From Lewinellaceae bacterium (GTDB lineage: Bacteria; Bacteroidota; Bacteroidia; Chitinophagales; Saprospiraceae): DNA of 42,117 nucleotides. Location of the stretch: the NCBI GenBank assembly GCA_947476195.1, contig CANJPT010000031.1, forward strand, positions 1-42,117, written 5' to 3'. Positions 4,297 through 38,354 of this stretch are shown here, in pieces (the stretch's first letter is position 1; each line of letters opens with the position of its first letter). A model generated the notes under the pieces. That model made no database searches and was not told the DNA's origin. It worked only from the letters and a program-made list of their open reading frames with translations. Position numbers and translations under genes: made by a program.

Positions 4297-7011
4297 TCAA
4301 TAGATCAAGGTGATGCCCGCTCCCAAGCCCATATCGCTGTCATAGTGGGTGGACAAAGCAAAGTATTTGGTGAGGATGTATCTAAACCCGGCCATGTATT
4401 CCTTGTCCGAGTTTACCATAAAATTGAATCTAAGCCGCTTTGCAATCGGAACATCCTCTCGTCCCAGTTGAAAGCGGAACTTGCCATCCGTATCTACCCT
4501 CGCATCGGCGACAAACAACATCGGAAGCACATAGGAGAGTCCCACGACGGCGGCCTTACGGTTGTTTTTGTTGCTTGTTTGCCCGAACATGGTCTTTGCC
4601 TCGTTGCCGAAAATGTTTTTTGGGCTTCCTTCCAAATCGAAAAAACCGTCTTGCAATTTGCCCTCCTTTTTATAATGGTAGTCAAAACCGGCATAAGGAT
4701 AGAGCCATTGCATCTTGCCTAAATACCGCCCAACGGTGGTCTCGCTTTCGTAGCCATGCTCGTCGTGATAGCCGAGATGCCAGAGCGTACCGAATTTCCA
4801 TCGTGTGTTCATCAGCCCAGCCTCGCCGTCCGAGCCGTTGCTTTCGAGGCCGACCCGCGCCATTGAATGAAATTTTCGGTCATCGGCAAACAATTGGCGT
4901 TGTGCCAATTTTGGATTGGGTATCTCGGGGTTCGGGGCTTGATTTTCATACGAAAAAACCCGACCCATGCCGCTCATCATGTGGTAGAGGATATGGCAAT
5001 GGAAAAACCAGTCGCCCTCGACATTGGCGTAGAATTCCAGGGTATCCGTTTCCATCGGCATAATGTCTACGATGTTTTTCAGCGGGGCATACTCGCCCTG
5101 CCCGTTAAGCAACCTGAAATCGTGTCCGTGCAAATGCATAGGGTGACGCATCATAGAGCCATTATGGAGGACAAGGCGCACAATTTCTCCTTTTTTGATC
5201 AGGATTTTATCGCTTTCAGACACCACCTTGTTGTTCAGACTCCAAACGTATCGGTTCATATTTCCCGATAATTCAAAGTGCAATTCCTTTACGGGAGCAT
5301 TTTTGGGCAGTGTTGTTTTGGTGGGCGATTTCAACATCGCGTAGTTCAGGGTCGTGATGTCTGAGAGGGCATTGGCATCATACTGCGCCTCGTCCATTTT
5401 ATGGTCTTCTTTGTGCTTGTCTCTCATTTTGTGCCCTTTTTTTTTCTCCGGCATCCCGGTGATTTCCGGATACATCACGACGTTCATATCCATTTGGTTT
5501 AGCGACATGTTCATGCCCATATCGTCCAGATCACCATTCATTTTCATCATTCCATTCATCATCTTCATGCCTTCAAAATATTTCAGTTTAGGCAATCTGG
5601 TCGCTAATTGTTTAGTACCGGAGCCTAAAAACAAGGATGCCGATTTTGTGCGGTCTTCAGGTGTTACTAAAAACTCGTAAGACATTTTTTCCTCAGGAAT
5701 GGTAACAACGACATCGTAAGTTTCTGAAACGGCTATAAGTAGCCTGTCTACCGCTACAGGTTCTACATCGTTGCCATCATTTGCAACGACGGTTATTTTA
5801 CCGCCTGCATAGCTGAGCCAAAAATTTGTGGAAGCGCCACCGTTTGCAATTCTTAAGCGGATTTTATCGCCTGCCTTGAATTGAGTTAGTTGGCTTTCGC
5901 TTTTTCCATTGATCAGGAACCTTTCGTAATAGACATCGCTCACATCCATTGCATTCATGCGCTTCCATTCGTTGGCGACTTTGGTCTTAAAATACCCTTG
6001 CTTTATGGCTTCTGCATAACTTTGGGTGGTGCCTTTTTTAATAGCAAACCAATCCGTAGCGTTGTGCAACATCCGGTGGACATTGTTGGGGTTCATGTCT
6101 GTCCATTCGCTTAAAACTATGGGTACGGTTGGTATATCCGGCTCCGCCCTTTTGTTCATGATAAAAGCGCCGTACATCCCAATTTGTTCCTGCAACCCTG
6201 AATGGCTGTGATACCAGTGTGTGCCATGTTGAATTATTGGAAACTTATACAAATAGGTGGTGTGAGGCTTTATAGGCATTTGGGTCAGGTAGGGTACACC
6301 ATCAAATCTATTCGGCAAAAACAAACCATGCCAGTGCATGGAAGTTGCTTCGTTCAATTCATTGTGCACATAAATTTCTGCGGTATCCCCCTCTGTAAAA
6401 GTCAGCGCAGGCATGGGTATTTGCCCATTCGCGGCGATGGCACGCCTGGTTTTGCCGGAAAAGTTGACCATGGTATCGCGGAGGTACAAATCATATCGGA
6501 CAGTTCGAGGGGGCGTTTTGTTTGGAATCTTTTTTGTAGGCAGTGATTCGGCCTTGGGTATTTTCTCCATTTTCATGGGGTCTTTGCTGTCACCCATATC
6601 CATAGATTTTGCTGCTGGCGCATCGGTTTTTGGTGCAGGTATGCCCGGTTTCTCCATGTTCATGCCAGGCATTTTTACCGTGTCCTTTTGTATGGCAATA
6701 TGTTCGTGTGTCTCGTGTTCAGGTTTGGGTTTTGGTTTCACTTTTTTGCCCTTCACTTTGACCAAAGTCATACCGCATATTGGGCAAGTACCGGGCTTAT
6801 CATTGTGGACCTTCGGGTCCATTGTACAAGTGTAGTATGAACCGTCGGGCAGCGATTTACCGTTGTTCTGGGCAAAAACGGCGTAGGTGTTGAAGAAAGA
6901 CAACACAAAAACCAGTGTGATCAATTTAGCTTTTTTGGGTGAACCGAAAATCCCGCCAAAACCCGCTATCACTGGCAACACTTTTTGACAAATATTTTTT
7001 TGAAAAGCCAT
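4297..7011 (-). CDS. Multicopper oxidase with N-terminal HMBD and C-terminal CopB-like beta-barrel
   Basis: A 904-residue exported protein predicted to oxidise Cu(I) in the envelope. Residues ~29-48 form the signal segment. Residues 58-87 are a heavy-metal-binding domain (CTMDP...CPICGM). A Lys/His/Met linker follows, then three cupredoxin domains: HWHG at 226-229, HWYHSHSG at 265-272, HPMHLHGHDF at 623-632, and HCHILYHMMSGM at 671-682 with a candidate axial Met. All four copper-ligand motifs are present. A Met/His/Asp-rich insert (about 480-545) resembles Cu(I)-binding Met-rich inserts of CopA/CueO. From ~705 to the end the protein changes character: amphipathic strands ending in aromatic TLIY resemble CopB (PF05275), an outer-membrane barrel normally encoded separately. 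Usual CopA-type oxidases are ~600 residues. The ATG at 7011 lies 18 bases after the haem-binding gene. Confidence 0.93.
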   Translation of the reverse strand: MAFQKNICQKVLPVIAGFGGIFGSPKKAKLITLVFVLSFFNTYAVFAQNNGKSLPDGSYYTCTMDPKVHNDKPGTCPICGMTLVKVKGKKVKPKPKPEHETHEHIAIQKDTVKMPGMNMEKPGIPAPKTDAPAAKSMDMGDSKDPMKMEKIPKAESLPTKKIPNKTPPRTVRYDLYLRDTMVNFSGKTRRAIAANGQIPMPALTFTEGDTAEIYVHNELNEATSMHWHGLFLPNRFDGVPYLTQMPIKPHTTYLYKFPIIQHGTHWYHSHSGLQEQIGMYGAFIMNKRAEPDIPTVPIVLSEWTDMNPNNVHRMLHNATDWFAIKKGTTQSYAEAIKQGYFKTKVANEWKRMNAMDVSDVYYERFLINGKSESQLTQFKAGDKIRLRIANGGASTNFWLSYAGGKITVVANDGNDVEPVAVDRLLIAVSETYDVVVTIPEEKMSYEFLVTPEDRTKSASLFLGSGTKQLATRLPKLKYFEGMKMMNGMMKMNGDLDDMGMNMSLNQMDMNVVMYPEITGMPEKKKGHKMRDKHKEDHKMDEAQYDANALSDITTLNYAMLKSPTKTTLPKNAPVKELHFELSGNMNRYVWSLNNKVVSESDKILIKKGEIVRLVLHNGSMMRHPMHLHGHDFRLLNGQGEYAPLKNIVDIMPMETDTLEFYANVEGDWFFHCHILYHMMSGMGRVFSYENQAPNPEIPNPKLAQRQLFADDRKFHSMARVGLESNGSDGEAGLMNTRWKFGTLWHLGYHDEHGYESETTVGRYLGKMQWLYPYAGFDYHYKKEGKLQDGFFDLEGSPKNIFGNEAKTMFGQTSNKNNRKAAVVGLSYVLPMLFVADARVDTDGKFRFQLGREDVPIAKRLRFNFMVNSDKEYMAGFRYILTKYFALSTHYDSDMGLGAGITLIY

Positions 7012-7029
7012 TTTAGGAACTTCATTTAT

Positions 7030-7497
7030 TTAGTGATTGGTAGCGGTGCTGTCCCTCGAATCGTTTGCCCAATTGAGAAGCAACTCTTTTTCTGAAGGCG
7101 ACAACACCGCATTTCTGTGAAGTAAAAGATAGGAAGGCAAAGGCATTACCCCTCCTTCAATCTGTTTGCCGATTGATTCCAGTTTGCTCCCTTGCCGCCG
7201 CTTCGAGTACGCGCCGAACTCGCTGAAATTCAATTTCTCCTTTCCATTACGAACGTGGTAGGCCATGAACCAACTACCGGGCTGAATATAACTATACCAT
7301 GGGTAATGCGTATTGTTGCTGTGGCAGTCGAAACATGACCTTGCCAAAATACCTTGCACTCCTTCCGGTATATCTAATGTCTTGGAAATATCCGTGTCCA
7401 TAACCTGCCCGGTTTCGTTGCGGGCAGGTTGGATAAACTGGATAAGCAAGAAAATTGCGGTTGCGGCCAACGCTATTCTTTTCAACCGTGCCTTCAT
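7030..7497 (-). CDS. Haem-binding domain protein (single CxxCH)
   Basis: A 155-residue protein of the Haem_bd type (PF14376). An N-terminal hydrophobic anchor (residues ~8-23, ALAATAIFLLIQFI) places it in the periplasm, tethered to or released from the inner membrane. It has one c-type haem motif, CFDCH at 55-59, followed by the family signature HYPWYSYIQP and later GGVMPLPSYLLLH, which supplies a possible Met axial ligand. The motif predicts a covalently bound haem and a role in electron transfer or haem-based sensing; the actual partner is unknown. It starts 2 bases after the DUF3347 gene stop and is followed after 18 bases by the multicopper oxidase, so it could accept electrons from that oxidase. 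That is inference from position only. Confidence 0.85.
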   Translation of the reverse strand: MKARLKRIALAATAIFLLIQFIQPARNETGQVMDTDISKTLDIPEGVQGILARSCFDCHSNNTHYPWYSYIQPGSWFMAYHVRNGKEKLNFSEFGAYSKRRQGSKLESIGKQIEGGVMPLPSYLLLHRNAVLSPSEKELLLNWANDSRDSTATNH

Positions 7498-7499
7498 TT

Positions 7500-8198
7500 T
7501 TATTTGATTTCCTCTTTCACTTTACCACAGGTGTACATTTTTTTGCCATAATAAGGGTTGGCAATTTCTTTGGTCTCACTCAACCAAATAGCTCCTTTCC
7601 CTTTGTCGTACATCGGGCAAAAATCCTCGTACAACGGCTGTCCGGATGGACCAAAGGCTTTCACCAAATCATAAAAATCCTTGCTCAAGAGTGCAAAATG
7701 TTCCCGTTGATGCTCGATGTTGCCACCGTTCGAGCCAATATGTTCGGCATGTTCACGAGCATCATCTTCCACTTCATCGTACATCATTTGCTGTTCGGCA
7801 GTCAAGGCACTTTTGTCGAAACCTTTGAAGGTCGCTTCCAGCGCTTTTCCTGCGGCTGCGGCATCCTGGCTTTTGTCGGCAGTGAACGCATTCTTCAAGA
7901 GCAAGTAACCATCCACGATTGTTTTGATAGAAGTAGTACCTGCTGCTTGATTGTTAGTTGCAGTGCTGCTTGTAGTGGCCGAATTATTCATATCTTTAAC
8001 TTCGGTCAATTCCATCCCGCATTTGGAGCACTTGTCGCCTTTTTTTCCGGTAATCTCCGGGTGCATTGGACAAGCGTACATGGTTTCCATTCCGGATTGC
8101 GCGGAATCTTGAGTCTTGTTCTCATTTTGTGATGGATTGTTTTTACAAGCGGCAAGCCCCAAGAACAGGGCGCAAAGAATCATTATTGAATTTTTCAT
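7500..8198 (-). CDS. DUF3347 lipoprotein with heavy-metal-binding domain
   Basis: A 232-residue predicted lipoprotein (lipobox LGLAAC, Cys18). Residues ~40-67 form an HMBD (YACPMHPEI...CSKCGMEL), the short Cys/His/Met module found on CusB-like adaptors. The remainder, from about residue 85, is a DUF3347 helical domain (PF11827), ending with DFCPMYDKGKGAIWLSE and NPYYGKKMYTCG; the Met, Cys and His residues there suggest a metal site. The function of DUF3347 is not established; it often occurs next to or fused with copper efflux adaptors in Bacteroidota. It follows a paralogous DUF3347 protein that has a different metal-binding head. The start is supported by an AT-rich leader (AAATTTTAAAC before ATG) very like that of its upstream neighbour. 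Confidence 0.88.
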   Translation of the reverse strand: MKNSIMILCALFLGLAACKNNPSQNENKTQDSAQSGMETMYACPMHPEITGKKGDKCSKCGMELTEVKDMNNSATTSSTATNNQAAGTTSIKTIVDGYLLLKNAFTADKSQDAAAAGKALEATFKGFDKSALTAEQQMMYDEVEDDAREHAEHIGSNGGNIEHQREHFALLSKDFYDLVKAFGPSGQPLYEDFCPMYDKGKGAIWLSETKEIANPYYGKKMYTCGKVKEEIK

Positions 8199-8235
8199 TG
8201 TTTAAAATTTGTAAGTGAGATGATAAAAGCAATAC

Positions 8236-9108
8236 TCATTTTAAGGTCTCCGTCACGCTCCCACATGTGAGCATTTGGTTCCCGTAATATGGGTTTTTGA
8301 TCGCTTTTTCGGTGCTGAGCCAATCACCGCCTTTTCCATCATTGTACATTGGGCAATGATCGTAATAGACCGCTGTTTCGGGTTTTACGACCTTCATTAC
8401 TTCGTATATGTTTTTAGACAGGGAAGCAAAGAATTCACGCTGCGATTTGATCTTCTGTGTGATTTTAATCTTCTCAGTATCAGCGCTCAGTTTTGGCTGA
8501 AACTTCATCCAGACGCTGTGATGCGCAGGTTGCATTGCTTCCATTTTTACGACTGCAATAGCATCATAAAGGGTTTTTGCCTGCGCTGCGGCAGTCGGGC
8601 CATCAGAAGCCACCAAAGCATTTTTTAATGCAAAATAAGCCGAGTACACTTCTGATAAAGGGTTTTGATCTGCGGCGGGAACAGCCTGTTTCTTGACTAT
8701 GCTTGCTGTGGACGTGGTTAGCACGGTTGGCGTTGTCGCAAGATTTTCCGTTGACCCTTCCGTCTTTTTAGGTCGCTCGTATTGGCAACACCCCGGAAGG
8801 TTTGCATAAACATCGTCCGGGGCGGAAAATTTGTCACTGTCATAGCCTGCTGCCGCAATGCTTTTCAGCACTGCATCAGCATTCGTTTTAGTACTGTCGA
8901 AAGTGATCTGCGCCATTTTTGTATCCTGATCCCAATCGGCTTTGGCTTCACCTTTTTTGAAGGCAGCCTTTTCGATGGTCTTTTCACACATTCCACAATT
9001 GCCATAAACGATAATCGCCTCGGTTTTGGTGTTTGGAATTTGTGCGTCACAACTGGAGAAAATGAACAATGCCGTCAGGGACATTGCAATATTTTTGAGC
9101 AAACTCAT
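8236..9108 (-). CDS. HMA-domain plus DUF3347 lipoprotein
   Basis: A 290-residue predicted lipoprotein (lipobox FIFSSC, Cys20). Residues ~29-100 form a heavy-metal-associated (HMA/CopZ-like) ferredoxin fold with the metal motif GNCGMC (Cys38, Cys41), followed by PGCCQY near 106-110, an extra Cys pair. From about residue 145 onward it is a DUF3347 domain ending DHCPMYNDGKGGDWLSTE and NPYYGNQMLTCG, closely matching the tail of the next gene. The two neighbours look like duplicates that acquired different metal-binding heads (HMA here, HMBD there). A periplasmic metal chaperone or sponge role is inferred. The gene is preceded by a structured inverted-repeat leader (9135-9226), and its ATG is immediately preceded by an AT-rich segment. 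Confidence 0.88.
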   Translation of the reverse strand: MSLLKNIAMSLTALFIFSSCDAQIPNTKTEAIIVYGNCGMCEKTIEKAAFKKGEAKADWDQDTKMAQITFDSTKTNADAVLKSIAAAGYDSDKFSAPDDVYANLPGCCQYERPKKTEGSTENLATTPTVLTTSTASIVKKQAVPAADQNPLSEVYSAYFALKNALVASDGPTAAAQAKTLYDAIAVVKMEAMQPAHHSVWMKFQPKLSADTEKIKITQKIKSQREFFASLSKNIYEVMKVVKPETAVYYDHCPMYNDGKGGDWLSTEKAIKNPYYGNQMLTCGSVTETLK

Positions 9109-9754: not shown

Positions 9755-11842
9755 CTATCTATCAGTTAAATCTTTCCTCAATAATTGCGCATTCAATGCG
9801 ACCACAACAGTGCTTAAACTCATCAAAACTGCCCCCATCGCCGGGCTGAGTACAAATTGCGGATATAAAACTCCTGCGGCCAAAGGAATGGCAACAACAT
9901 TATATCCCGTTGCCCACCACAAGTTTTGCACCATTTTCCGATAGGTTGCTTTGCCAAAATTGACCAACCCAAGTACATCAGAAGGCTTGCTGTCTGTCAA
10001 AATAATATCTGCCGTTTCGGCAGCCACATCTGTGCCAGAGCCAACGGCTATTCCCACATCCGCCTGTGCAAGCGCGGGAGCATCATTCACGCCGTCGCCA
10101 GTCATGGCCACATACTCCCCTTTGGCTTGTAAGTCTTTTACGATTTCAACTTTCTGGTGAGGCAGTACCTCGGCGAAATAGCCGTCTAATCCCAACTGTT
10201 CAGCGACGGCCTTCCCTACGATAGAGTTGTCCCCTGTAGCCATGAATACTTTGATGCCTTGGCTTTTCAACTGCCGTACCGCTTCAGCGGCATCGGGTCG
10301 GATTTGGTCAGATAGCGCAAGGAATCCCACCAATTTATCATCCTCCAATACAAAAACCACTGTCTCGGCAGCTGAACCAACAGCATCGACGGGCAGTTCG
10401 ATGTTCTTTTCCTTCAAATATCCAGGACTGACGACGCTGATATTTTTGCCATCTACTTGACCGGTGATGCCTTTGCCAGTGATTGAGGTAAAATTGGATA
10501 CGGAAGGCAGTGACAAGCCTGCGGTTTTGGCTGCCGCAACTATACCCTGAGCAATGGGATGCTGGCTTTCCTGTTCGAGCGCGGCAGTAGTGGCGAGCAG
10601 GGTGTTTTTATCAAAATCTTTGGAAAGCGTATTGATACGTGATACACCGAACTTCCCTTCGGTGAGCGTTCCAGTTTTGTCAAATACCATCGCCGTAATG
10701 CGGCGTGCATTTTCAAAAGCAGTCCTATTTCGAATAAGCAGCCCGCGCCGAGCGGTCATGGCCGTAGAAATAGCGACCACCAGCGGTATCGCTACACCGA
10801 GCGCATGTGGACAGGAAGTGACCATGACGGTGACCATACGTTCGAGCGCGAAGGCCAGTGTCTGCCCTTTGGCGAGCCAGACGGCCAGCGTCCCAAAGCC
10901 TACTCCCAACGCTATAAAAGTCAGCCACTTAGCCGCGCGATCTGCCAAATGCTGGGTCTGCGATTTAGCAGCTTGGGCCTCTTGCACCAAGGTAATAACC
11001 TTATTGAGGTAGCTGTCTTTGCCGGATTTGTCCACCCGGATTTTTAGGCTGCCCTCTCCGTTGATTGCCCCAGCGATAACTTTCGCGCCTTCTGTTTTTT
11101 GCACCGGGACACTTTCACCTGTTAGCATACTCTCGTTCACGCTACTGCTGCCCTCAGTTACAGTGCCATCCACTGGGATTTTTTCGCCAGGCTTCACCAA
11201 TACGAGGTCTCCTATTTTCAACTCGTCCACGCGCATATCGTGCAACATTTCGCCGCCGTGATACATATGTGCCTCGGCGGGCATCATTTTGACAATCAAC
11301 TCCAAGGCTTTCGAGGCACCGGCAACGGATTTCATTTCGAGCCAATGTCCCAAGAGCATAATAACGATGAGTGTGGCGAGTTCCCAGTAGAAATCCATGC
11401 CCTCCACCAATCTGAACACCACAGCCGTGCTGTATAAGAATGCTACTGTTATGGCCACGCCAATGAGGGTCATCATGCCGGGTTGACGGCGTTTTAGTTC
11501 ATCCCAAAGCCCCATCAGAAACGGCCAGCCGCCATAAAAATAAATGATGCTACCAAGCGCCACCGACACCCAATCGCGACCTGGAAAAGTGAACTGATAC
11601 CCAACGGCCATTTGAAACATTGGGGAAATAGCCACCACGGGCACCGTAAACACAAGACATATCCAGAACCGCCGCAGGAAATCTGCGATCATTTTCGAAT
11701 GGTCATGACTGCCGCCGTGTCCCGAATGGCTTGCACCGTGCATTGCACCTTCCATAACCGTTCCATCGGGCATAGTATGTACACCGTGTTTGGAGTGGTC
11801 TTCGGGTGAAGGGTTTGGATGGTCTGGGTGATTGTGTTTCAT
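9755..11842 (-). CDS. copB: Copper-translocating P1B-type ATPase, CopB-like (CPH motif)
   Basis: A 695-residue inner-membrane pump that exports copper using ATP. The N-terminus (residues 1-50) is a His/Met-rich tail (HNHPDHPNPSPEDHSKHG ... HGASHSGHGGSHDH) in place of Cys-type HMA domains. TGES is at ~241-244; the transmembrane metal motif is CPH (344-346), typical of the P1B-3/CopB class rather than the CPC of CopA; the phosphorylation motif DKTGT has Asp388; HP-locus SQHPIA and GDGVNDAPA follow. Length and motif order are those of complete family members. It begins 7 bases after the stop of the galactose-oxidase-like gene, so the two are co-transcribed and probably translationally coupled. 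CPH pumps have been linked to Cu(I)/Cu(II) or Ag efflux; the exact ion is not decided here. Confidence 0.95.
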   Translation of the reverse strand: MKHNHPDHPNPSPEDHSKHGVHTMPDGTVMEGAMHGASHSGHGGSHDHSKMIADFLRRFWICLVFTVPVVAISPMFQMAVGYQFTFPGRDWVSVALGSIIYFYGGWPFLMGLWDELKRRQPGMMTLIGVAITVAFLYSTAVVFRLVEGMDFYWELATLIVIMLLGHWLEMKSVAGASKALELIVKMMPAEAHMYHGGEMLHDMRVDELKIGDLVLVKPGEKIPVDGTVTEGSSSVNESMLTGESVPVQKTEGAKVIAGAINGEGSLKIRVDKSGKDSYLNKVITLVQEAQAAKSQTQHLADRAAKWLTFIALGVGFGTLAVWLAKGQTLAFALERMVTVMVTSCPHALGVAIPLVVAISTAMTARRGLLIRNRTAFENARRITAMVFDKTGTLTEGKFGVSRINTLSKDFDKNTLLATTAALEQESQHPIAQGIVAAAKTAGLSLPSVSNFTSITGKGITGQVDGKNISVVSPGYLKEKNIELPVDAVGSAAETVVFVLEDDKLVGFLALSDQIRPDAAEAVRQLKSQGIKVFMATGDNSIVGKAVAEQLGLDGYFAEVLPHQKVEIVKDLQAKGEYVAMTGDGVNDAPALAQADVGIAVGSGTDVAAETADIILTDSKPSDVLGLVNFGKATYRKMVQNLWWATGYNVVAIPLAAGVLYPQFVLSPAMGAVLMSLSTVVVALNAQLLRKDLTDR

Positions 11843-11849: not shown

Positions 11850-14798
11850 TTACCTTAAAATCAATTTTTCAGTCCCCAAAATCACATCCTCCAAACGGGC
11901 CGTTAGTATGTAAACCCCAGGCTGAATCCCTGATGTTTTGAGTATAAAAACTTGCTTGTCTATAGTTTTATCAAATAAGGAATAGTTCCGAACTTGTTTG
12001 CCAGCCGCATCCGTCAATTCAAAACTCATCTTACCAGTCTTTTTTAAACTTATCTCAACCGATAAGAAGCCACCCGAAACCAATGGGTTTGGAAAGACAC
12101 GGAATGATTCTACTAAGCCGGGTTCTTTAATGTTGACTGTAATAATGGTAATCGTCTGCGTGTCAGATGCCGTACCACAGGGTCCCGTTGATATGAGTGT
12201 CACTGTGTACGTTCCGTCATTTGCGTATGTGTGTGTTGGACTGGTTTGAGTGCTTGTACTTCCGTCGCCAAAATCCCACAGATAGCTGCTGGCATTGGTC
12301 GAAGTGTTGGTAAAAGAAGCTGCCGCCCCTAATATGGAATTACTGAAACCGGAAGTAGGTAAAGGGCTAACGGTGATATAATTTGGTTGGGTAGAAGTAT
12401 TGCTACCTGCGCTGTTACTCACCGTTAAGGTCACGGAATATGTGCCGGGGGTTGAATAAAATACTGTCGGATTTTCTACTGAAGAAGAACTGGGTGAACC
12501 ACCGGGGAATTGCCAGTCAAAATTCGTTGCATTGGCCGAAGATGTACTGCTAAACTGTACCGTCAATGGCGCACAACCATCAGTCAGATTGGACGAGAAT
12601 CCTGCTGTCGGAGGAGTAGTTATCACCACCGATTGGGTAGTCGTGTCTGCGCTGCAAAGTCCATTTGCAATGAGCGTCACGATATAAGTCCCATCAGTGG
12701 CATACAGGTGCGAAGGATCGGTCTGCGTACTCGTGCTGCCATCTCCAAAACCCCAAGCATAGATGGTGGCGTTACTGGAAGAATTTATAAATGAAGCTGT
12801 TGCACCATTGACCATGCTACTGAAACTGGCAGTAGTCAAGGGTGGCACCGTGATATAGTTTGTCTGCGTGGTGGAATTGCTGCCAGCACTGTTACTTACA
12901 GTAAGTGTGACGGAGTAGTTGCCCGAGTTCGGATATACCACAGTTGGGTTTTGTGTAGTGGACGAACTGGGTATTGCTCCAGGGAATTGCCAGTTGAAAT
13001 TTGTTGTATTAGAAGAAGATGTGCTGGTAAATTGCACCGTTAGCGGCGCACAACCATCAGTTTGATTAACCGTAAAACCAGCCGTTGGCGGTGTAACAAC
13101 TACCATTGGTGGTCCGGGCAAAATCCGCACCATTCGGGCAACCGAAGGAATATCGTCCACCATTGCCCAGAGCATATACCAGCCTGGCATCGAGCGCAGC
13201 GAATCGTTCGGCACAATAGCTTCTATGCTCTGTCCCTGTTGCGAGAAATTGAGGTCGAGGAAACGGTTTTCTCCACAATTCATCATGTGCGTAACAGCGG
13301 TAGTGCTTTGCAGCACAACGGCGGTAGGTGCATTGGTTCGCCCTGCTTCAAAACGAATCGTGTCACCCCTATTATAATCCGTTTTTGCAAGGTTCAATAC
13401 CTGTGGACGCACCCCTCTGAATAGATAGGGTGGCTTATAAGCATCGATGATACTCTGTGGAGGCTCATTGCCCGGAGCGCCCTCACCGCCTACCACGATT
13501 ATCCGGCCATCGGGTACGAGTGTTGCAAGAGCATGATATTCCCTTTTACGGGGCATGGGCATAAGTCGTCTCCAAGTATCTGCGTAAGGATCATAAAGAT
13601 CTGTCAAATCCATATGCCCCCATTGATTCACAGGAGTCGGGTCGGATGGCTCCTCCTTGAAACCTGCGAGCGTAAGTATATGGCGGTCAGGCAGGAGCAC
13701 GGTTTCTGGACGAGAACGCAAAGGTGCGAAGTTGGATCGCAGCGTCCAGGTATTGGCGATGGGATCATAGCGTTCGACCAGATTTCCACCGCTGCCAGCC
13801 GGAAAAGGTTTGAAGCCAATTGCAATAACGTCTCCTTCGGGCAGGTGTACAAGTTCGTGGTCCACATGATCTCCATTGGGCATCCGGTTGCCCTGTACAA
13901 AATCGGCAGCTAAATTCCATTGTTTTGTAGCTGGGTCAAAAAGTTGAGGCGGGCGGAAAGTCATCAGGGCTTTGCCACTGTAAAGTGTGAGTATGGGCGA
14001 TTGTTCCATGCGGATGGCAACGGTGTCTGCCCATTCAGTAATGCCGGTGATAGGATTGTACAATTCGCTTGTGTTCACACGAACCGGATTAGCCAGTCCT
14101 CCGCCGCCAACGATGAGCAGCCTTCCATCGGCAAGTTGTATCATGGAAGGATACCAGCGATAATCTAACATGGGAGGCAGCGGCTGCCAGGTTTTTGTGG
14201 AACTATTATACTGTTTGACTTTATTGGAACCGGGACCATATATTTCTTGGTCAGTGCCACCCGCCATGATGACTTTACCATTCCAAAGCAGCTTCGGGGC
14301 AACACAACCCTGTACTTTAGTATCGCCTGGAACAGTAACCGTATCATTGGCTGCCGGGTCAAAAGCAAAAGGGTCTTTGGTGCTGTGGCAGTAATAAATA
14401 GTACCATTTGGCAACAGTACCCCCAGGTCTGTGCCCCCGAGCGGTTCGGGAGAAACCATGATTACGTTCCATTGACCTTCCTCGGTTTCGGGGGCGAGTT
14501 GTGCATCGTGGGTGACTGTGCCGATAATATTGGGAATGCTGTTTTGAAAATAAGCAAAGCCGGGTTTGGCAGCACCAAAGGACAAGGGTATCCCGCCTGG
14601 GAGGTTTACCATTAAATACTGTCCTGTAGGATTGGTTCGGGTTTCCCAAAATTGTGTGGTGTCTGCGTTGAACAATGTGATACGGACATTGCTAAGCGGC
14701 GCTCCGCCTGGGCCGATAACAGTACCAGTGAGCGTTTGAGCAGATACGAAGCTGAGATTTGCGGTCAACAAAATGAACGCGAATAATAGATATCGCAT
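11850..14798 (-). CDS. Secreted galactose/glyoxal-oxidase-like copper radical oxidase with PKD and T9SS domains
   Basis: A 982-residue exported protein. ATG at 14798 is chosen because it starts a clear signal peptide (MRYLLFAFILLTANLSFVSA); the upstream in-frame extension overlaps the methyltransferase gene. Order: signal 1-20; carboxypeptidase-regulatory-like beta sandwich ~22-105; Kelch propeller ~110-455; DUF1929 E-set ~463-560; PKD domains ~570-651, 652-727, 729-810, 811-887 in an A-B-A-B pattern; T9SS sorting domain ~896-982. Residues matching the galactose oxidase copper site are all present: Cys165 (VQGCVAP) and Tyr216 (RWYPS) for the thioether cofactor, Tyr421-His422 (REYHA) and His504 (AVTHMM). 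RWYPS is closer to glyoxal oxidases. It predicts oxidation of an alcohol or aldehyde with release of hydrogen peroxide; substrate unknown. It is joined to the CopB gene downstream. Confidence 0.9.
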   Translation of the reverse strand: MRYLLFAFILLTANLSFVSAQTLTGTVIGPGGAPLSNVRITLFNADTTQFWETRTNPTGQYLMVNLPGGIPLSFGAAKPGFAYFQNSIPNIIGTVTHDAQLAPETEEGQWNVIMVSPEPLGGTDLGVLLPNGTIYYCHSTKDPFAFDPAANDTVTVPGDTKVQGCVAPKLLWNGKVIMAGGTDQEIYGPGSNKVKQYNSSTKTWQPLPPMLDYRWYPSMIQLADGRLLIVGGGGLANPVRVNTSELYNPITGITEWADTVAIRMEQSPILTLYSGKALMTFRPPQLFDPATKQWNLAADFVQGNRMPNGDHVDHELVHLPEGDVIAIGFKPFPAGSGGNLVERYDPIANTWTLRSNFAPLRSRPETVLLPDRHILTLAGFKEEPSDPTPVNQWGHMDLTDLYDPYADTWRRLMPMPRKREYHALATLVPDGRIIVVGGEGAPGNEPPQSIIDAYKPPYLFRGVRPQVLNLAKTDYNRGDTIRFEAGRTNAPTAVVLQSTTAVTHMMNCGENRFLDLNFSQQGQSIEAIVPNDSLRSMPGWYMLWAMVDDIPSVARMVRILPGPPMVVVTPPTAGFTVNQTDGCAPLTVQFTSTSSSNTTNFNWQFPGAIPSSSTTQNPTVVYPNSGNYSVTLTVSNSAGSNSTTQTNYITVPPLTTASFSSMVNGATASFINSSSNATIYAWGFGDGSTSTQTDPSHLYATDGTYIVTLIANGLCSADTTTQSVVITTPPTAGFSSNLTDGCAPLTVQFSSTSSANATNFDWQFPGGSPSSSSVENPTVFYSTPGTYSVTLTVSNSAGSNTSTQPNYITVSPLPTSGFSNSILGAAASFTNTSTNASSYLWDFGDGSTSTQTSPTHTYANDGTYTVTLISTGPCGTASDTQTITIITVNIKEPGLVESFRVFPNPLVSGGFLSVEISLKKTGKMSFELTDAAGKQVRNYSLFDKTIDKQVFILKTSGIQPGVYILTARLEDVILGTEKLILR

Positions 14799-14808: not shown

Positions 14809-15438
14809 TTAATATGCTGAGGTTGGAAGTCTTCGAAAACTGCAAAATACGAAGTTCTGAATTGTGTCGAATGGGGTGAGGTGATCGGTGGTAATGCAGC
14901 GAATTTTGTGGAAAAAACGGCTGATTCGCTCTGACAAACTGTGCTCTGAATATTGTTTGATTTCCAACCCGCTGCACTTAGTGGGGCCATTTTCGGAAAA
15001 GACGCCTATGACCAAAATGCCTTCAGGGACGATAAACTCTCGCATAGTTTTAATGTGTTTTTCAACTTCTGTATCCGCCGTTAGGAAGTGGAAAGTGGCG
15101 CGGTCGTGCCAGAAATCGTACTGTTTATCAGGTCTAAAATCAATTATATCTGAGACGATCCAACGGATTTGGTGGGCGGCTTCGCCAAGTTCTTGCTGTT
15201 TTTTGTCAATAGCATTTTGAGAAATGTCGAGCACTGTGATATCCTGATATCCTTCGGCAAGCAGGTAATTGACAAATTGGCTCTCCCCACCGCCAACGTC
15301 AATGATTTTGGCTGAGCGGGGCAGCTTTGCGGACTCTAAGAACTCTATGGATGTGGTCGGCATTTCCTGATACCAGCTCGTCTGGGCGAATTCTTTATGC
15401 TGGTAAATTTTTTCCCAATGTTCTTTTCGTGTCGGCAT
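14809..15438 (-). CDS. Class I SAM-dependent methyltransferase
   Basis: A 209-residue cytosolic protein with the Rossmann-fold methyltransferase pattern: motif I IIDVGGGESQFV at ~45-56, then ITVLDISQNAID (acidic residue binding the SAM ribose at the end of strand 2), IRWIVSDIIDF (motif post-II) and FWHDRATFHFLT. The start HWEKIYQHKE is common to small methyltransferases of the Methyltransf_25/TPMT-like group, which act on small molecules or thiols/metalloids. The substrate cannot be read from the sequence. Stop is 10 bases before the radical oxidase start and the gene follows the Asp-box propeller by 44 bases, all on one strand, so it is likely part of the operon. Whether it contributes to metal or metalloid tolerance is speculation. 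Confidence 0.88.
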   Translation of the reverse strand: MPTRKEHWEKIYQHKEFAQTSWYQEMPTTSIEFLESAKLPRSAKIIDVGGGESQFVNYLLAEGYQDITVLDISQNAIDKKQQELGEAAHQIRWIVSDIIDFRPDKQYDFWHDRATFHFLTADTEVEKHIKTMREFIVPEGILVIGVFSENGPTKCSGLEIKQYSEHSLSERISRFFHKIRCITTDHLTPFDTIQNFVFCSFRRLPTSAY

Positions 15439-19908: not shown

Positions 19909-20643
19909 TTACAAATGCATCAGTAGCATGGCCCCTGACATCGCTACCATCAACACATCTTCAAACAATGTCACTTTACTCATCGGCAAATTGAACACCG
20001 CACCGAGACAGGCGCATTGAAACTGACGCTTCGCAAGCAGGCTTTGAACCACTCCTACAGTGCTGATCCCCATGATTGCGAATGTCAAACTATTAGTAAC
20101 CAAGGGGTTGAAATTAAGCAGAAACAATGCGCCCAATGAGAACTCTATGAACGGATAGACGTAGCCCCAACCCAACCAACGCCGCGCTATCACGTCGTAA
20201 CTGCTGTATGAAGCAGCAAAAGCAGGGACATCAAGCATTTTGAAAAACGAAAAAACGAGAAAAAATCCCGCCATAAAATGGCGCATCCATCGCATCCAAT
20301 CGAAGGCCCCGGCTGCGACTTCTACCAAGAGTGTAGCGCCGAGAATATAGCTGAATATGAGCAGAATGGGCTTGTAAGTCTCCCAAAATGTGCGTGAGAC
20401 CTCTTCAACTGCCAAGGTCGCGGTGGGCGCTACATGAGGAGCTTCAACCAATTGATACTTGGGATAGTCGCGCAGCGCAGCCTGCAAATCGGCAGTAGCG
20501 ACATGATGGCTCATGGTAACTTCTACCTTGCCATCCAAGCATACCGTCGAAGCGGTCACGCCGGGTATTTTTTCAAGCAGGGATTTTACTTTGGAAACGC
20601 AGCCTTCGCAGGTGATGCCTGAAACTTGATATTTGTGTGTCAT
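19909..20643 (-). CDS. HMA domain fused to MauE/DoxX-like membrane protein
   Basis: A 244-residue inner-membrane protein. Residues 1-70 form an HMA metal-binding domain with GITCEGC (Cys12, Cys15). After a linker, four hydrophobic segments follow: ILLIFSYILGATLLV, FMAGFFLVFSFFKML, a PFIEFSLGALFLL segment, and the C-terminal VLMVAMSGAMLLMHL. The loop before the last segment holds QCACLGAVFNLPMSKV, matching the MauE/methylamine-utilisation family (PF07291), whose Cys pair is tied to disulphide or redox handling. Similar HMA-MauE fusions occur in copper and mercury clusters. A role in delivering copper or reducing equivalents across the membrane is inferred. A tandem repeat resembling an AraC operator lies 64-97 bases upstream of the ATG, just after the regulator gene. 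Confidence 0.87.
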   Translation of the reverse strand: MTHKYQVSGITCEGCVSKVKSLLEKIPGVTASTVCLDGKVEVTMSHHVATADLQAALRDYPKYQLVEAPHVAPTATLAVEEVSRTFWETYKPILLIFSYILGATLLVEVAAGAFDWMRWMRHFMAGFFLVFSFFKMLDVPAFAASYSSYDVIARRWLGWGYVYPFIEFSLGALFLLNFNPLVTNSLTFAIMGISTVGVVQSLLAKRQFQCACLGAVFNLPMSKVTLFEDVLMVAMSGAMLLMHL

Positions 20644-20706
20644 TTAGTACAGTGTTTTATAAAAATTTTGACACTGCAAAAGTCAGGGTCATAGCCGTGT
20701 CGGATA

Positions 20707-20740
20707 GTACAGGATTTTGGGAGAGTTGTGCAGGATTTTG
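20707..20740 (-). promoter_or_regulatory. Tandem direct repeats, candidate HMA-AraC operator
   Basis: Two near-identical 13-mers, CAAAATCCTGCAC (20728-20740) and CAAAATCCTGTAC (20707-20719) when read on the minus strand, start 21 bases apart, i.e. two helical turns. They lie between the regulator stop (20743) and the HMA-MauE start (20643). Same-orientation repeats about 21 bases apart are typical of AraC-family binding sites. A smaller inverted pair CAGTGT/ACACTG (20650-20655, 20671-20676) lies nearer the start. Binding by the neighbouring regulator is inference. Confidence 0.5.
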
Positions 20741-20742
20741 TG

Positions 20743-21312
20743 CTAAACTGCGTCCAGTGTCTTCCTTCCGTGCCGCCGATGTTCAGCTTTGAATTGTGTT
20801 GGAGTAATCCCTGTTACTTGCTTGAACTGGTTGCTCAAATGTTGTGTACTGGTATACCCAGTCTGAAACGCGATTTCGCCAATTGACAATTCGTTATACA
20901 CCAGCAGCTCTTTCACCCGCTCGATTTTCTGTGCGATAATGTGCTTCTCAATCGTTACCCCTTCCACTGAAGAGAACAGTTTGCTCAACTGCGAATACTC
21001 GTGGCCTGTTTCGCGGGCTAAGAAATCTGAGAAATTCAAAGACTCTGGTTTTTTGCTCGCCGCGTAATGTATTTCGTTGAGTATCAAATTTTTGATTTGT
21101 GCCACTATTTGACTGTTACGGTCATCAAGGAGTTCAAAACCCTCGGATTCAAGACTTTTGCGTAATTTGGACAACTGTTCAGAATTAGGAGAAGCAGTCA
21201 ATTCTACTTCCCCTAATTCTACGTTTTTTATTTCCAGGTCCGCTTCAGTAAACAATCGCTCAACCGTACGAATACAGCGGGTGCAGACCATATTTTTGAT
21301 GTAGAGCTTCAT
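20743..21312 (-). CDS. AraC-family regulator with N-terminal HMA-like metal-binding head
   Basis: A 189-residue regulator; the ATG at 21312 (MKLYIKNMVCTRC) removes an unlikely upstream extension. Residues ~1-65 resemble a compact HMA domain with MVCTRC (Cys10, Cys13), followed by a helical linker and an AraC DNA-binding domain (~100-185) with IGEIAFQTGYTSTQHLSNQFKQVTGITPTQFK, the canonical second helix-turn-helix. It lacks the usual AraC cupin or DJ-1 sensory domain, so metal binding at the Cys pair is the likely signal. It is a close paralogue of the regulator at 33826-34395 (same length, near-identical layout, both ending GRKTLDAV). It is the last gene of the efflux operon, 49 bases after the second adaptor, and the adjacent direct repeats are a plausible target. 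Confidence 0.9.
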   Translation of the reverse strand: MKLYIKNMVCTRCIRTVERLFTEADLEIKNVELGEVELTASPNSEQLSKLRKSLESEGFELLDDRNSQIVAQIKNLILNEIHYAASKKPESLNFSDFLARETGHEYSQLSKLFSSVEGVTIEKHIIAQKIERVKELLVYNELSIGEIAFQTGYTSTQHLSNQFKQVTGITPTQFKAEHRRHGRKTLDAV

Positions 21313-21361
21313 AATAGCGTAGCGTTTTCTTACCAGAAGGCAAATAAGCAAAATATCTCTA

Positions 21362-22615
21362 TCACATCTTGTGTCCGGCCATGGGATCGGTTCCTTTTTT
21401 GAACACAAATTCGCTGTGCAGCAGATAGGCCCCTGACACTACCACCATCTCGCCTGCTTGCAGTCCCTCGACGATTTCGGTGTAGTCTTCATTGGCAATA
21501 CCGATGCGCACCATGCGACCTTCAAATCCGCCACCCTCATTTTTTGTCCAGAGCGAAACGCCACGATTGTCCCGTATGAGCGCGTTGGTAGGCACCGCGA
21601 GGGCGTGGCGGGTTTTGCCTTTTAGTGTAATCCAAACCTGCATACCCGGTTGGTATTCGCCTTTTGAATTGTGGATTTCCACCCGCGCCAGTACTATTTT
21701 AGAAGAGGCTTCGAGGTTAGGATTTACAAAACTCACCTTGCCACTTAAAATTCTTCCGGGGAAATATGGCAACGAGACCGATGCTTCGCGGGTTTGAGCG
21801 AGAAAGGGCAAATCACTGACATAAAGCTGCGCTTCGGCCCAGAGTGTGCGCAGATCAGCGAGTTTCAGCACCATCGAGCCGGGTGACACGTAACTGCCTT
21901 CGGCAGGCGGTGCTTCCATGACATAACCAGCATAGTGGCTGTAAAAAGTCACTGAGTTTTTGGGAGTGCCCGACAATTCGAGTTCTTGCAACTGAGCTTC
22001 GGTCATGCCCCAAAGCAGTAGTTTGTTGCGGGCGGCTTCTGCGATGCGCGCAAAGTCCAGGTCAGCGTTGCCATAGCGATTTTTGCTTTTCAATGCGAGC
22101 AAATAATCTTGTTGTGCGGCGGCTATGTCTTCGCTGTACAACTCGAAAACGGCTTGCCCTGCCCGTACATATTCGCCTGCGTTGCGCACGAAAAGACGTT
22201 CGATCCTTCCGGTAAGCCTTGCTGTTACGGTATTGATGCCGTTTTGATTTTCCCGGAGGGTTGCGGCGAGGGTGATTTCTTCCCCCACTTGTCGCAGTCG
22301 AACCGTGTCCGTCTGGATGTTGGCGAGTCGGATTTGTTCGGCGCTGAGTTTCACTTCATTGTCTTTTTTGTCAGGCGCAATTTCCACCCGGACCAAAGGC
22401 ATCTTGCAGATCGGGCAGGGGCCGGGTCTTTGTTCCTTGACTTGAGGGTCCATGGAGCAGGTGTAATAGACGTTTTCTTCTGCCGGGGCGGGGGCAGGTT
22501 TGGAGCAGGCAGTTAGGAGCAGTGTTGCGGCGAACAGGCTACGCTTACTAAACTTTTGAAGTTTAGCAAACGTCATCATTTGCTTCGTGGCTATTAGTGA
22601 TTTTATAGCATTCAT
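21362..22615 (-). CDS. CusB-like adaptor lipoprotein with HMBD (second of tandem pair)
   Basis: A 417-residue membrane-fusion protein with lipobox LLTAC (Cys37 from ATG 22615; internal Met13/Met14 are alternative starts). Residues ~50-78 are an HMBD variant (YTCSMDPQV ... CPICKMPL) with Lys in place of the usual Gly. The core follows: lipoyl halves near TVTARLTGRIERLFV and SHYAGYVMEAPPAEG, a short helical hairpin with YSEDIAAAQQDYLLA, and a barrel ending VVSGAYLLHSEFVFKKG. It shares this architecture with the adaptor directly upstream, and both should serve the TolC and RND proteins of this operon. The signal-peptide codons contain a 15-bp inverted repeat (22541-22573). Having two adaptors suggests either a mixed complex or different roles; the sequence does not decide. 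Confidence 0.92.
   Translation of the reverse strand: MNAIKSLIATKQMMTFAKLQKFSKRSLFAATLLLTACSKPAPAPAEENVYYTCSMDPQVKEQRPGPCPICKMPLVRVEIAPDKKDNEVKLSAEQIRLANIQTDTVRLRQVGEEITLAATLRENQNGINTVTARLTGRIERLFVRNAGEYVRAGQAVFELYSEDIAAAQQDYLLALKSKNRYGNADLDFARIAEAARNKLLLWGMTEAQLQELELSGTPKNSVTFYSHYAGYVMEAPPAEGSYVSPGSMVLKLADLRTLWAEAQLYVSDLPFLAQTREASVSLPYFPGRILSGKVSFVNPNLEASSKIVLARVEIHNSKGEYQPGMQVWITLKGKTRHALAVPTNALIRDNRGVSLWTKNEGGGFEGRMVRIGIANEDYTEIVEGLQAGEMVVVSGAYLLHSEFVFKKGTDPMAGHKM
22541..22573 (-). repeat. Palindrome inside signal-peptide codons of adaptor 2
   Basis: Arms 22541-22555 and 22559-22573 are 15 bases each with two differences, both compatible with G-U pairing in RNA, around a central TTG (CAA on the coding strand). 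It encodes the TFAKLQKFSKR part of the signal segment. The same layout (14-15 base arms, CAA centre) is found in the neighbouring adaptor at 23907-23937. The reading frame stays open. Confidence 0.6.
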
Positions 22616-22650
22616 TGTCTGTACGTTGTCAAATCTTGCGTTATTGCCGA

Positions 22651-24030
22651 TCAGTTTAATTTTACAAAGCTCTCGCTGTCCATCAACAACTGCCCATTTT
22701 TAGCGATTTCGTCTTCCGGTGAAAGTCCCGACACCACTTCCAGCATTTGCCCGGTACGGCTGCCGATGCTGATTTTCCGCGACTGAAAGCCCCCTTCTGT
22801 TTTTACAAAGACGACTGTTGTCTTCCCCAAGTCGAGTGCTGCCGTTGCCGGTATCCAGAGGGCGGAGCGACCCATGGCCTGCACCCTGGCAGTGAGTAAA
22901 GTGCCGGGTTTTAGCCGCTCTCCCGGATTAGACAGGTACACCCGAGCCCGAAGGTTTTTACTCCCGGATCCATACATTGGTTCGATATAGTTGATTTTCC
23001 CTCGAAACGGTTCTGCGAATGATTCGATGCGTAATTCGACCGATTGGCCGACTTTCAGCGACTGCACATTGGATGGCGAAAATTCGAGTATCGCCCAAAT
23101 GGTGACAAGACTTTGCAATCCGAAAAGTCGCTGACCAGGCTGGACATACATACCTTCTTTCAGGGAAAATTCGCGGGAGGAAGTTGTGGGTAGAGGGCTG
23201 GGACTTTGCCCTGTTTGGTTGCCGTTCATGCCGTCGGCGGGCATTATTCCAGCAGGACTTGCACTTAGGCTTTCGACCAGCAATCCAGCGTATGGGCTGT
23301 AAACCGGCAACGACAAGAACGGTTTACGATTGGTTTCCACTTCCTGAATTTGTCTGTCGGTCAGACCGAGCAAGGAAAGACGTCGCCGGGAATTTTCGAT
23401 GAGCGTCATGTTATCTGTGTCATTTTCTTTTAAAAAAATCAAGTCCTGCTGTGCGCTGGCAATGTCGGGGCTGTAAATGTCAAGCAGGTGTTCTCCTTTT
23501 TTCACGGACTGGAAAGGGAAGCGAACATAAAGCCGCTCGATACGCCCGCCATAACGGGCTGATACTGCCTTGAGTTGCTTTGCATCGTAAGTCAGGAAGC
23601 CAGACACTTCCAGGCTGTCGGACATGGATTTGTATTCTGGTCGAACGGTGGCAGTTGAGCTAAGCACGTATTGGTTCGTGGGTTTCAATAGGATGTCATT
23701 GCTGTCCGGCCCGACTACGTGATCGGCGTGTTCGTATTCTTTTTTGACCAGGTCCATACCACAAATGGGACAGCTACCAGCTGCGTCGCGCAGGATTTCC
23801 GGGTGCATCGGACAGGTATAAACGGACTTTTCTCCGGTGGTGTGACCTTCGTGTCCGGGGCTCTTCTGAGTACAGGCTGCCAACGTCATCGCTAATGTAA
23901 TCACGAGATTTGACAAATTTTTGAAAGTTGTCAAATCTGCCGTAGCCGAATTTCCCATCCCGAATACTCGGGACAAACTTTCGGGAAGTTGGATCACTTG
24001 GTATTTACCGTTGTTCCAATTCTTTTTCAT
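22651..24030 (-). CDS. CusB-like adaptor lipoprotein with HMBD (first of tandem pair)
   Basis: A 459-residue membrane-fusion protein. ATG at 24030 (MKKNWNNGKY) is preferred over an in-frame GTG three codons upstream; either overlaps the TolC gene end by 26-35 bases, implying translational coupling. The lipobox is TLAAC (Cys53), unusually far from the start: about 40 residues precede the hydrophobic core, and their codons contain two palindromes (23907-23937 and 23958-23973), so the long n-region looks like a product of repeat insertion. Residues ~70-98 are an HMBD (YTCPMHPEI ... CPICGMDL). The core includes ARYGGRIERLYV, YSPDIASAQQDLIFL, YSPYAGLLVES and a C-terminal VVSGLSPEDEIAKNG. A Gly/Ser/Pro-rich insert (MNGNQTGQSPSPLPTTSS) interrupts the second lipoyl half. 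Confidence 0.92.
   Translation of the reverse strand: MKKNWNNGKYQVIQLPESLSRVFGMGNSATADLTTFKNLSNLVITLAMTLAACTQKSPGHEGHTTGEKSVYTCPMHPEILRDAAGSCPICGMDLVKKEYEHADHVVGPDSNDILLKPTNQYVLSSTATVRPEYKSMSDSLEVSGFLTYDAKQLKAVSARYGGRIERLYVRFPFQSVKKGEHLLDIYSPDIASAQQDLIFLKENDTDNMTLIENSRRRLSLLGLTDRQIQEVETNRKPFLSLPVYSPYAGLLVESLSASPAGIMPADGMNGNQTGQSPSPLPTTSSREFSLKEGMYVQPGQRLFGLQSLVTIWAILEFSPSNVQSLKVGQSVELRIESFAEPFRGKINYIEPMYGSGSKNLRARVYLSNPGERLKPGTLLTARVQAMGRSALWIPATAALDLGKTTVVFVKTEGGFQSRKISIGSRTGQMLEVVSGLSPEDEIAKNGQLLMDSESFVKLN
23907..23973 (-). repeat. Two palindromes inside the N-terminal codons of adaptor 1
   Basis: First: arms 23907-23920 and 23924-23937 (14 bases each, one mismatch) around TTG; its outer ten bases, GATTTGACAA/TTGTCAAATC, are perfect. 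A solitary copy of TTGTCAAATC also lies at 22626-22635 in the gap between the two adaptors. Second: TCCCGA (23958-23963) and TCGGGA (23968-23973) around ATAC. They encode DLTTFKNLSNL and SRVFGM respectively without interrupting the frame. They resemble mobile extragenic palindromes that have landed in coding DNA. Confidence 0.6.
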
Positions 24031-25234: not shown

Positions 25235-25235
25235 C

Positions 25236-33336: not shown

Positions 33337-33672
33337 TTACATTTTGCTCATGTTGCTGCACTCCGTGGCACATTTGCGGCAGGCTTCAGCGCACTTTTTG
33401 CAATGGTCCATGTGCGAATGCTTTTCACATTCAACAGCGCAGGCGGTACAGATTTCAGCACAGAGTTTACAGATTTGGTTTGCAAACTCACTTCCGCCAG
33501 CCATTGCTTGCACGGCTAAAAGGCAAATTGCTCCGCAGTCATGGTCTAACTTGATGCAACGCGCGAACATTTTAAGGTCCTGTTCATCCAGGCATGCACT
33601 TGCACAATGATAACATTCTACCGCGCACGCAGAACAGGCTGCGATACAGCTTTGATACTTTTGATGACTCAT
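33337..33672 (-). CDS. csp: Four-helix-bundle copper storage protein (Csp/DUF326)
   Basis: A 111-residue protein with 19 cysteines, beginning at ATG 33672 (MSHQKYQSCIAACSACAVEC). Cys residues occur every 3-4 positions along each predicted helix: 9, 13, 16, 20, 23, 27; 39, 46, 50; 68, 71, 75, 78, 82; 91, 94, 98, 101, 105. This is the pattern of the Csp family (DUF326, PF03860), whose bundles fill with many Cu(I) ions. There is no signal peptide, so it corresponds to the cytosolic Csp3 type. It is the only evident cytosolic copper buffer in the window. It is preceded by a long inverted repeat 9 bases before the ATG and followed by a terminator; the HMA-AraC regulator lies directly upstream, so regulation by it is likely. 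Confidence 0.93.
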   Translation of the reverse strand: MSHQKYQSCIAACSACAVECYHCASACLDEQDLKMFARCIKLDHDCGAICLLAVQAMAGGSEFANQICKLCAEICTACAVECEKHSHMDHCKKCAEACRKCATECSNMSKM

Positions 33673-33680
33673 AGTGTTTG

Positions 33681-33712
33681 TTTGTATCGTGAAAGAATTT
33701 TCACAATACAAA
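33681..33712 (-). promoter_or_regulatory. Long inverted repeat immediately upstream of csp
   Basis: Arms TTTGTATCGTGAAA (33681-33694) and TTTCACAATACAAA (33699-33712) are 14 bases with one mismatch around GAAT. The repeat ends 9 bases before the csp ATG at 33672. It could be a repressor operator overlapping the start of transcription, or an RNA hairpin that blocks ribosome entry. On the minus strand CATCTTTG (33708-33715) overlaps it and resembles a Bacteroidota -7 box (TAnnTTTG) with one deviation. Confidence 0.5.
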
Positions 33713-36095: not shown

Positions 36096-36133
36096 TGCGT
36101 TGAAAATTGAATGATGGGTATTGAGCAAAAAGA

Positions 36134-38349: not shown

Positions 38350-38354
38350 TCCGT

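Follow-up and report, generated by a model that had tools for sequence, protein, structure and literature searches.

The window considered here is a 42,117 nucleotide stretch, the forward strand of contig CANJPT010000031.1 from a Lewinellaceae bacterium (Bacteroidota; Saprospiraceae). It includes a gene for a 982 aa protein that resembles galactose and glyoxal oxidases, here treated as a candidate copper radical oxidase, in the midst of genes for copper transport and copper-binding proteins (Table 1). The longest open reading frame (ORF) that a mechanical search assigns to the oxidase begins at 14990 and overlaps the upstream methyltransferase gene. As the orthologues have signal-peptide-like N-termini, with approximately 20 mainly hydrophobic residues followed by a QTLTGTV-like sequence, the start was placed at 14798. 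From N- to C-terminus, the protein includes a signal-peptide-like N-terminus, a CarboxypepD_reg domain, a kelch core with a GO-like E-set domain, four PKD stretches and a tail that resembles the sorting tag of the type IX secretion system (T9SS). A first-pass annotation of this DNA had described a Kelch plus DUF1929 frame, and Pfam agrees: PF09118 (GO-like_E_set), of which DUF1929 is presumably the former name, scored 56.5 bits against a cut-off of 25, and the kelch repeats, the four PKD stretches and CarboxypepD_reg were also matched.

Table 1. Positions of the oxidase gene, its motifs and the neighbouring genes in the window
Feature	Position	Strand	Remarks
Copper radical oxidase gene (galactose/glyoxal-oxidase-like), candidate	11850..14798	(-)	982 aa
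YCH motif, Cys137-His138	14385..14390	(-)	clade-specific within comparison; end of predicted strand
Cys165 codon, predicted thioether cysteine	14304..14306	(-)	galactose oxidase C228, GlxA C121
Trp215-Tyr216 codons in RWYP	14151..14156	(-)	GlxA W288 and its next Tyr; galactose oxidase Y272
RPPQ motif, aa 282-285	13944..13955	(-)	clade-specific within comparison; most other proteins have AGPS or similar
GDHxDHE motif, aa 309-315	13854..13874	(-)	clade-specific within comparison; directly before predicted strand
RSR motif, aa 361-363	13710..13718	(-)	clade-specific within comparison; one outside protein has RTR
Tyr421-His422 codons	13533..13538	(-)	galactose oxidase Y495-H496
His504 codon in E-set domain	13287..13289	(-)	galactose oxidase H581
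HMA+DUF3347 protein (HMA below cut-off), HMBD+DUF3347 protein, haem-binding-domain protein, HMBD+CopA-like multicopper oxidase	4297..9108	(-)	
CopB-type copper P1B ATPase, CPH motif, His-rich N-terminus	9755..11842	(-)	7 bases downstream of oxidase
Methyltransferase, TehB-like among Pfam matches	14809..15438	(-)	10 bases upstream of oxidase
HMA+MauE protein, AraC regulator, two CusB-like adaptors, CusC-like outer membrane protein, CusA-like permease (two ORFs)	19909..28395	(-)	
Cys-rich DUF326 protein, Csp1-like	33337..33744	(-)	below Csp1 model cut-off
Multicopper oxidase with T9SS tag	34392..36281	(-)	
Two di-haem MbnH/MauG-like enzymes	37045..39458	(-)	each with 2x CXXCH
MbnP-family protein, WGW, T9SS tag	39471..40469	(-)	tag above NCBIfam cut-off, below Pfam's

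The first-pass annotation had also listed the five residues of the copper site. Cys165, Tyr216, Tyr421, His422 and His504 are found at those numbers and align with the galactose oxidase residues given in Table 1 (HMMER alignment to PDB chain 2eid). All five are invariant in 16 of 16 alignment rows and in the 19 clade rows of the motif comparison described below. By position, they match C91, Y259, Y471, H472 and H559 of the chain of GlxA, the AA5 oxidase of Streptomyces lividans/coelicolor (PDB 4unm). The GlxA Cys was not aligned with Cys165 by HMMER, and the two were paired via the gapless run to the following GGT. As chain C91 corresponds to C121 of GlxA, the site of the reported C121G variant (PMC4736821), the numbering is offset by +30, and chain W258, the match of Trp215 in the window oxidase, is W288. 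W288 is the residue mutated in PDB entries 5lxz and 5lqi. This second-shell Trp is invariant in the clade (19/19). The motif containing it is RWYP in every clade row, which supports the RWYP type read earlier rather than the GGSW, or galactose-oxidase, type.

Galactose oxidase proper (AA5_2) was rejected as an identity, as there is no Trp290 equivalent and the rim residues differ. The fungal enzyme (1gof) has five equivalent residues and the same fold, but where it has the stacking residue Trp290 in GGSW the window has GGGG, GGSW is found in 0/19 clade rows, and a Pfam scan of the window oxidase returned no match to its discoidin domain. The galactose-oxidase-type bacterial proteins in our comparison likewise have rim residues unlike those of the clade.

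The oxidase core (aa 105-563) was modelled with AlphaFold2 from 16 aligned sequences, giving a mean predicted local distance difference test score (pLDDT) of 82.9 and a predicted TM-score (pTM) of 0.88. When the model was used to query the PDB with Foldseek, ranks 1-27 were exclusively AA5 oxidases (TMq 0.73-0.85). GlxA had the top TM-score, at 0.84-0.85, and galactose oxidase reached approximately 0.79. Designed kelch proteins top the sequence-based scores for the window oxidase. Chance kelch similarity was nonetheless rejected, because Foldseek separates the AA5 oxidases from the designed and other kelch proteins at ranks 28-50, where TMq is at most 0.46. The structure prediction that had been proposed as a check therefore places the core among the solved AA5 oxidases, and together with the PF09118 match it points to a kelch propeller plus E-set fold. 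Both the residues and the predicted fold support identification of the window protein as a galactose/glyoxal-oxidase-type copper radical oxidase.

Secretion via T9SS, also claimed earlier, has sequence support in most of the relatives and is marginal for the window copy itself. Ten relatives were scanned with TIGR04183 (T9SS sorting); seven scored above the cut-off, one just below it, and two had no match at E<=0.1. The window oxidase had no match to this model at E<=0.001. Judged on these sequence features, T9SS export is likely for most clade members, and the window oxidase is probably exported.

YCH, the Cys, RWYP, RPPQ, GDHxDHE, RSR, EYH and TH are present in all 19 members of the clade to which the window oxidase belongs. 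They were compared with 15 complete AA5-like proteins from outside it, nine from Bacteroidota genomes and six from plasmids of other bacteria; several were weaker matches (<42% identity), and the partial protein of locus L115 was omitted here and from the tree (loci and genomes are designated L and G, respectively). All 15 keep the five copper-site residues, and they divide by type into nine with GGSW and six with RWYP. YCH, RPPQ and GDHxDHE occur in none of them, and a single one has RTR at the RSR position. In an unrooted tree of 34 bacterial AA5-like proteins, in which some outside branches are long, the 19 clade members split off with support of 100/100 on a stem of 2.17 changes per column. 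The window oxidase is thus part of a deep Bacteroidota clade that is marked by motifs of its own.

In the AlphaFold2 model, the clade motifs are located at the ends of the blades' second strands or directly before first strands. As the catalytic Tyr and the Tyr-His pair also directly precede first strands, kelch topology suggests that the clade motifs probably line the active-site face. They would probably form a conserved charged rim made up of His311, Asp313, His314, Glu315, Arg361 and Arg363, plus Cys137-His138. As this rim is particular to the clade, galactose is probably not the substrate, which may be a charged compound.

The source genome contains a single copy of the oxidase gene. Matches of at least 60% identity were found in 13 of the 42 genomes of the genus, and a profile run over 395 genomes of the class returned two members beyond the genus (in G462 and G737). 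Of the nine genomes matching this profile, six others carry only weaker proteins, which were not counted as members. Matches of <42% identity were excluded, as was a 61% match in G020 that covers 28 residues and contains a stop. A scan of genome contigs returned 15 oxidase loci, all in Bacteroidota metagenome-assembled genomes and 9/15 in Saprospiraceae, most of which repeat the genus genomes. The rarity asserted for bacterial members is upheld within the phylum: at E<=1e-8, PF09118 was found in 5/395 Bacteroidota genomes, including the source genome, and it was absent from the 14 control genomes. Among plasmids, 32 records had a match to the oxidase, eight of which were taken for comparison. 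In pHALHY01 of Haliscomenobacter hydrossis DSM 1100 the match is a 61% homologue, WP_013768967.1, annotated as 'galactose oxidase-like domain-containing protein', while the other 31 records have <60% identity (23-30% among the matches listed). As the H. hydrossis oxidase gene (L114, 19695-21677) is plasmid-borne and the copy in L072 is nearly identical to it, oxidase-bearing copper islands may be mobile.

The oxidase had been reported to lie in a copper island, 7 bases from a CopB ATPase, and both descriptions were confirmed. The ATPase scored 605 bits with TIGR01511 (cut-off 397), has a His-rich N-terminus and no HMA match, and contains CPH in place of CPC, which we take to be the mark of CopB. 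The DUF3347, HMBD and HMA proteins, multicopper oxidases, Cus-like genes, DUF326 protein and MbnH and MbnP genes of the island are all on the same strand. TIGR04039 was the best-scoring family for the two MbnH-like neighbours, at 243 and 299 bits against a cut-off of 362.85. The MbnP neighbour, which has the WGW sequence, reached 113.3 bits with PF20243 (gathering score 27) and fell below the cut-off of TIGR04052 (50.8 vs 140).

Fifteen markers drawn from the window were used to query 20 oxidase loci with flanks of up to 10 kb, together with 40 control stretches, five of them <11 kb, picked blind from seven of the genomes. At least one copper marker was found in 18/20 oxidase loci compared with 2/40 controls (Fisher 3.6e-11), and at least three in 14/20 compared with 0/40 (Fisher 2.2e-9), with kinship and paralogous markers ignored in both tests. 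As the markers come from the window, their number gauges likeness to its island, and three markers need not mean three genes, because paralogous markers (the multicopper oxidase, MauG-like and CusB-like pairs) can match one gene. Duplicates were counted once (L061-L068, L073 and L074 duplicate L046-L053, L055 and L056; L071 duplicates L088) and two G455 fragments were omitted. As L072 and L114 are nearly identical, at most 19 of the loci are independent. In pHALHY01 the oxidase gene sits within a copper operon, and in L087, which holds one of the two distant members, MbnP, HMA-MauE and AraC genes are found in its vicinity. The oxidase is associated with the island as a whole, including the MbnH/MauG-like and MbnP genes.

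A close orthologue of one di-haem gene, MauG1, is present in 11/13 oxidase-bearing and 12/29 oxidase-free genomes of the genus (Fisher p=0.010, kinship ignored). It lies within 35 kb on the oxidase contig in nine of the 11, and on another contig in G032 and G455. Because all 42 genomes have some MauG-like match, MauG1 was counted only from at least 61% identity (partial only in G010 and G018), which gave 23/42 genomes among the matches listed; its presence alone is a weak marker. As MbnP-MauG2-MauG1 units also occur without the oxidase, it seems to be an optional addition to a copper module.

We consider it likely that the window gene encodes an exported copper radical oxidase of a separate Bacteroidota clade that is accessory to copper islands, and whose hydrogen peroxide (H2O2) possibly serves MbnH/MauG-like enzymes and MbnP. 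Loaded with copper exported by the island pumps, the oxidase would bind one copper ion through Tyr216, Tyr421, His422 and His504, with the Tyr216-Cys165 thioether as its radical cofactor. Its residues and fold suggest that it would oxidise a small alcohol or aldehyde, with reduction of O2 to H2O2, on or close to the cell surface, where the H2O2 could be used by the di-haem enzymes and MbnP of the same island. In AA5 oxidases, copper is required for the cross-link and H2O2 is produced, and MbnH uses H2O2 to form kynurenine in MbnP. Two systems are reported in which an AA5 oxidase has a genetic or functional link to a haem peroxidase, the fungal AlcOx with its tandem peroxidase (AlcOx-Perox; PMC9770985) and GlxA-DtpA of Streptomyces (PMC4736821). 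Unlike those peroxidases, the partners here are di-haem MbnH/MauG-like proteins, encoded at a distance of 2.5-35 kb when they share a contig with the oxidase, and their link to it is purely genomic. A Trp-derived cofactor is described as dependent on MauG, and it has been suggested that the kynurenine in CorA and MopE is made by MauG-like di-haem proteins (PMC3912023). It is because AA5 enzymes make H2O2, have such ties to haem peroxidases in two systems and would here adjoin putatively kynurenine-forming MauG-like proteins that we favour a function of the oxidase in surface copper handling, and a part played through peroxide is possible. A complete relay, in which excess copper plus an alcohol or aldehyde leads to H2O2 with which an MbnH/MauG-like enzyme converts a Trp of MbnP to a copper ligand, and in which H2O2 may also keep the oxidase active, is a speculative and rather doubtful extension. 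If it operates, copper toxicity would itself prompt the formation of sites that bind copper.

Several observations weigh against an oxidase accessory to copper islands. For the window protein, Glyoxal_oxid_N (PF07250) reached 31.6 bits, below its gathering score of 37.5, the GlxA model NF052501 gave 101.3 bits against a cut-off of 800 (98-132 bits in 10 relatives, all far below it), and the T9SS tag is weak at 21.5 bits (Pfam cut-off 27). The Fisher tests on linkage disregard kinship. MauG1 is found without the oxidase in the 12 of 29 genomes noted above, and is missing from the oxidase-bearing G025 and G030 (82 and 89% complete). As each occurs without the other, neither strictly requires the other. 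No copper marker was found in the 6.1 and 3.2 kb flanks of L086, a distant member from another family, where Nramp and DtxR-type genes and a gene for a DHOR di-haem protein lie near the oxidase, nor in the 2.2 kb flanks of L050, and L049, L052 and L087 have one marker each. The DHOR-type gene (L086, 1872-3092) is again a di-haem gene near an oxidase, despite the absence of a copper marker.

The main rival is a GlxA-like role, in which the enzyme oxidises a cell-surface glycan of a sheath, capsule or biofilm and owes its place in the island solely to a need for copper or to the joint transfer of island and sheath genes. GlxA is the closest structural match and is reported to act in glycan deposition (PMC4736821), H. 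hydrossis is described as growing inside a hyaline sheath (PMC3156403), and the oxidase is probably exported and is PKD-extended in three loci. GlxA also shares the order of the copper and Tyr-Cys residues, an identical Cys-to-GGT spacing, a Trp immediately before the ligand Tyr and an E-set domain with His. However, the scan of window genes, which covered a subset of the ORFs, recognised neither a glycan synthase nor a glycosidase, and copper markers recur in 18/20 loci. GlxA and the window oxidase are only 16-18% identical over the structural alignment, NF052501 is far from its cut-off, and the GlxA gene of Streptomyces is reported to have cslA and an endoglucanase gene as neighbours (PMC3543389). 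L118, an RWYP-type Streptomyces plasmid protein, lacks YCH, RPPQ, GDHxDHE and RSR, GlxA itself being outside the motif comparison. A glycan role is unlikely, though a serious competitor to a function in copper islands.

A dedicated pairing, with the CopB ATPase as loader of the oxidase, was proposed in the first-pass annotation from their proximity. Three loci (the window, L046 and L055) have a spacing of 5-7 bases (from tblastn coordinates), and it is their oxidases that match over the PKD-extended length. A copper-ATPase homologue (at least 35% identity) is encoded on the same strand less than 5 kb away in 12/20 loci. However, order, distance and ATPase type vary: the ATPase gene is sometimes upstream, by 71 bases in H. 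hydrossis, and an AraC gene intervenes in three loci. The flanks of L054 (8.7 and 9.1 kb), L069, L086 and L087 yielded no ATPase homologue, nor did the short ones of L049, L050 and L053, and the sole homologue in L047 is 33% identical, 6.5 kb away and on the opposite strand. As the tight pair occurs in only 3/20 loci, coupling specific to the ATPase is unsupported, the pair was rejected as a generally conserved unit, and a dedicated loader is improbable. It is just as improbable that the protein is a copper sink, abundant, exported and passivating copper by binding it with catalysis incidental, since one mononuclear site per 982 aa protein would be costly and 19/19 members retain every redox residue, with the second-shell Trp among them, even though extra conserved His, Asp, Glu and Cys-His positions are probably on the active-site face and a number of the neighbouring genes (MbnP family, DUF326 and HMBD) probably encode copper-binding proteins.

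An exported oxidase accessory to copper islands would add to a small set, as a role is known for few bacterial copper radical oxidases; the novelty lies in a deep Bacteroidota clade that has motifs of its own and a tie to copper islands. We know of no radical oxidase in the described MopE/CorA-CorB or MbnP/MbnH loci. In these, as in the window, a copper-binding partner is reported to adjoin a di-haem MauG-like protein (PMC3912023). According to a 2013 survey, functional studies of bacterial copper radical oxidases covered GlxA and FbfB only, and prokaryotic GlxA-like proteins were confined to Proteobacteria and Actinobacteria (PMC3543389). Among the best-ranked results of a search of open-licence papers, none was recognised that treats Bacteroidota AA5 proteins or such oxidases in copper islands. 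The clade provides enzymes whose specificity is probably new, and through it a connection from copper stress to extracellular peroxide and on to the peroxide-driven biogenesis of copper sites can be put to the test. One member, carried on pHALHY01, comes from H. hydrossis DSM 1100, a cultured sludge bacterium.

Among the remaining genes of the window, the CusA-like resistance-nodulation-division (RND) permease is split into ORFs at 25236-27146 and 27133-28395 (-) that overlap by 14 bases. Matches to its N- and C-terminal parts adjoin in L047, L051, L089, L090, L095 and L101, and pHALHY01 has two permease genes annotated side by side. A 524 aa T9SS-tagged protein (40535-42109, -), with no other family above cut-off, recurs beside MbnP/MauG genes in several loci, and a T9SS-tagged Reeler/choice-of-anchor-V protein with one CXXCH (36134-37003, -) recurs near the oxidase in some. 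Two small proteins (3867-4268 and 9270-9701, -), one His-rich and one Cys-rich, have no Pfam match and are possibly exported copper binders.

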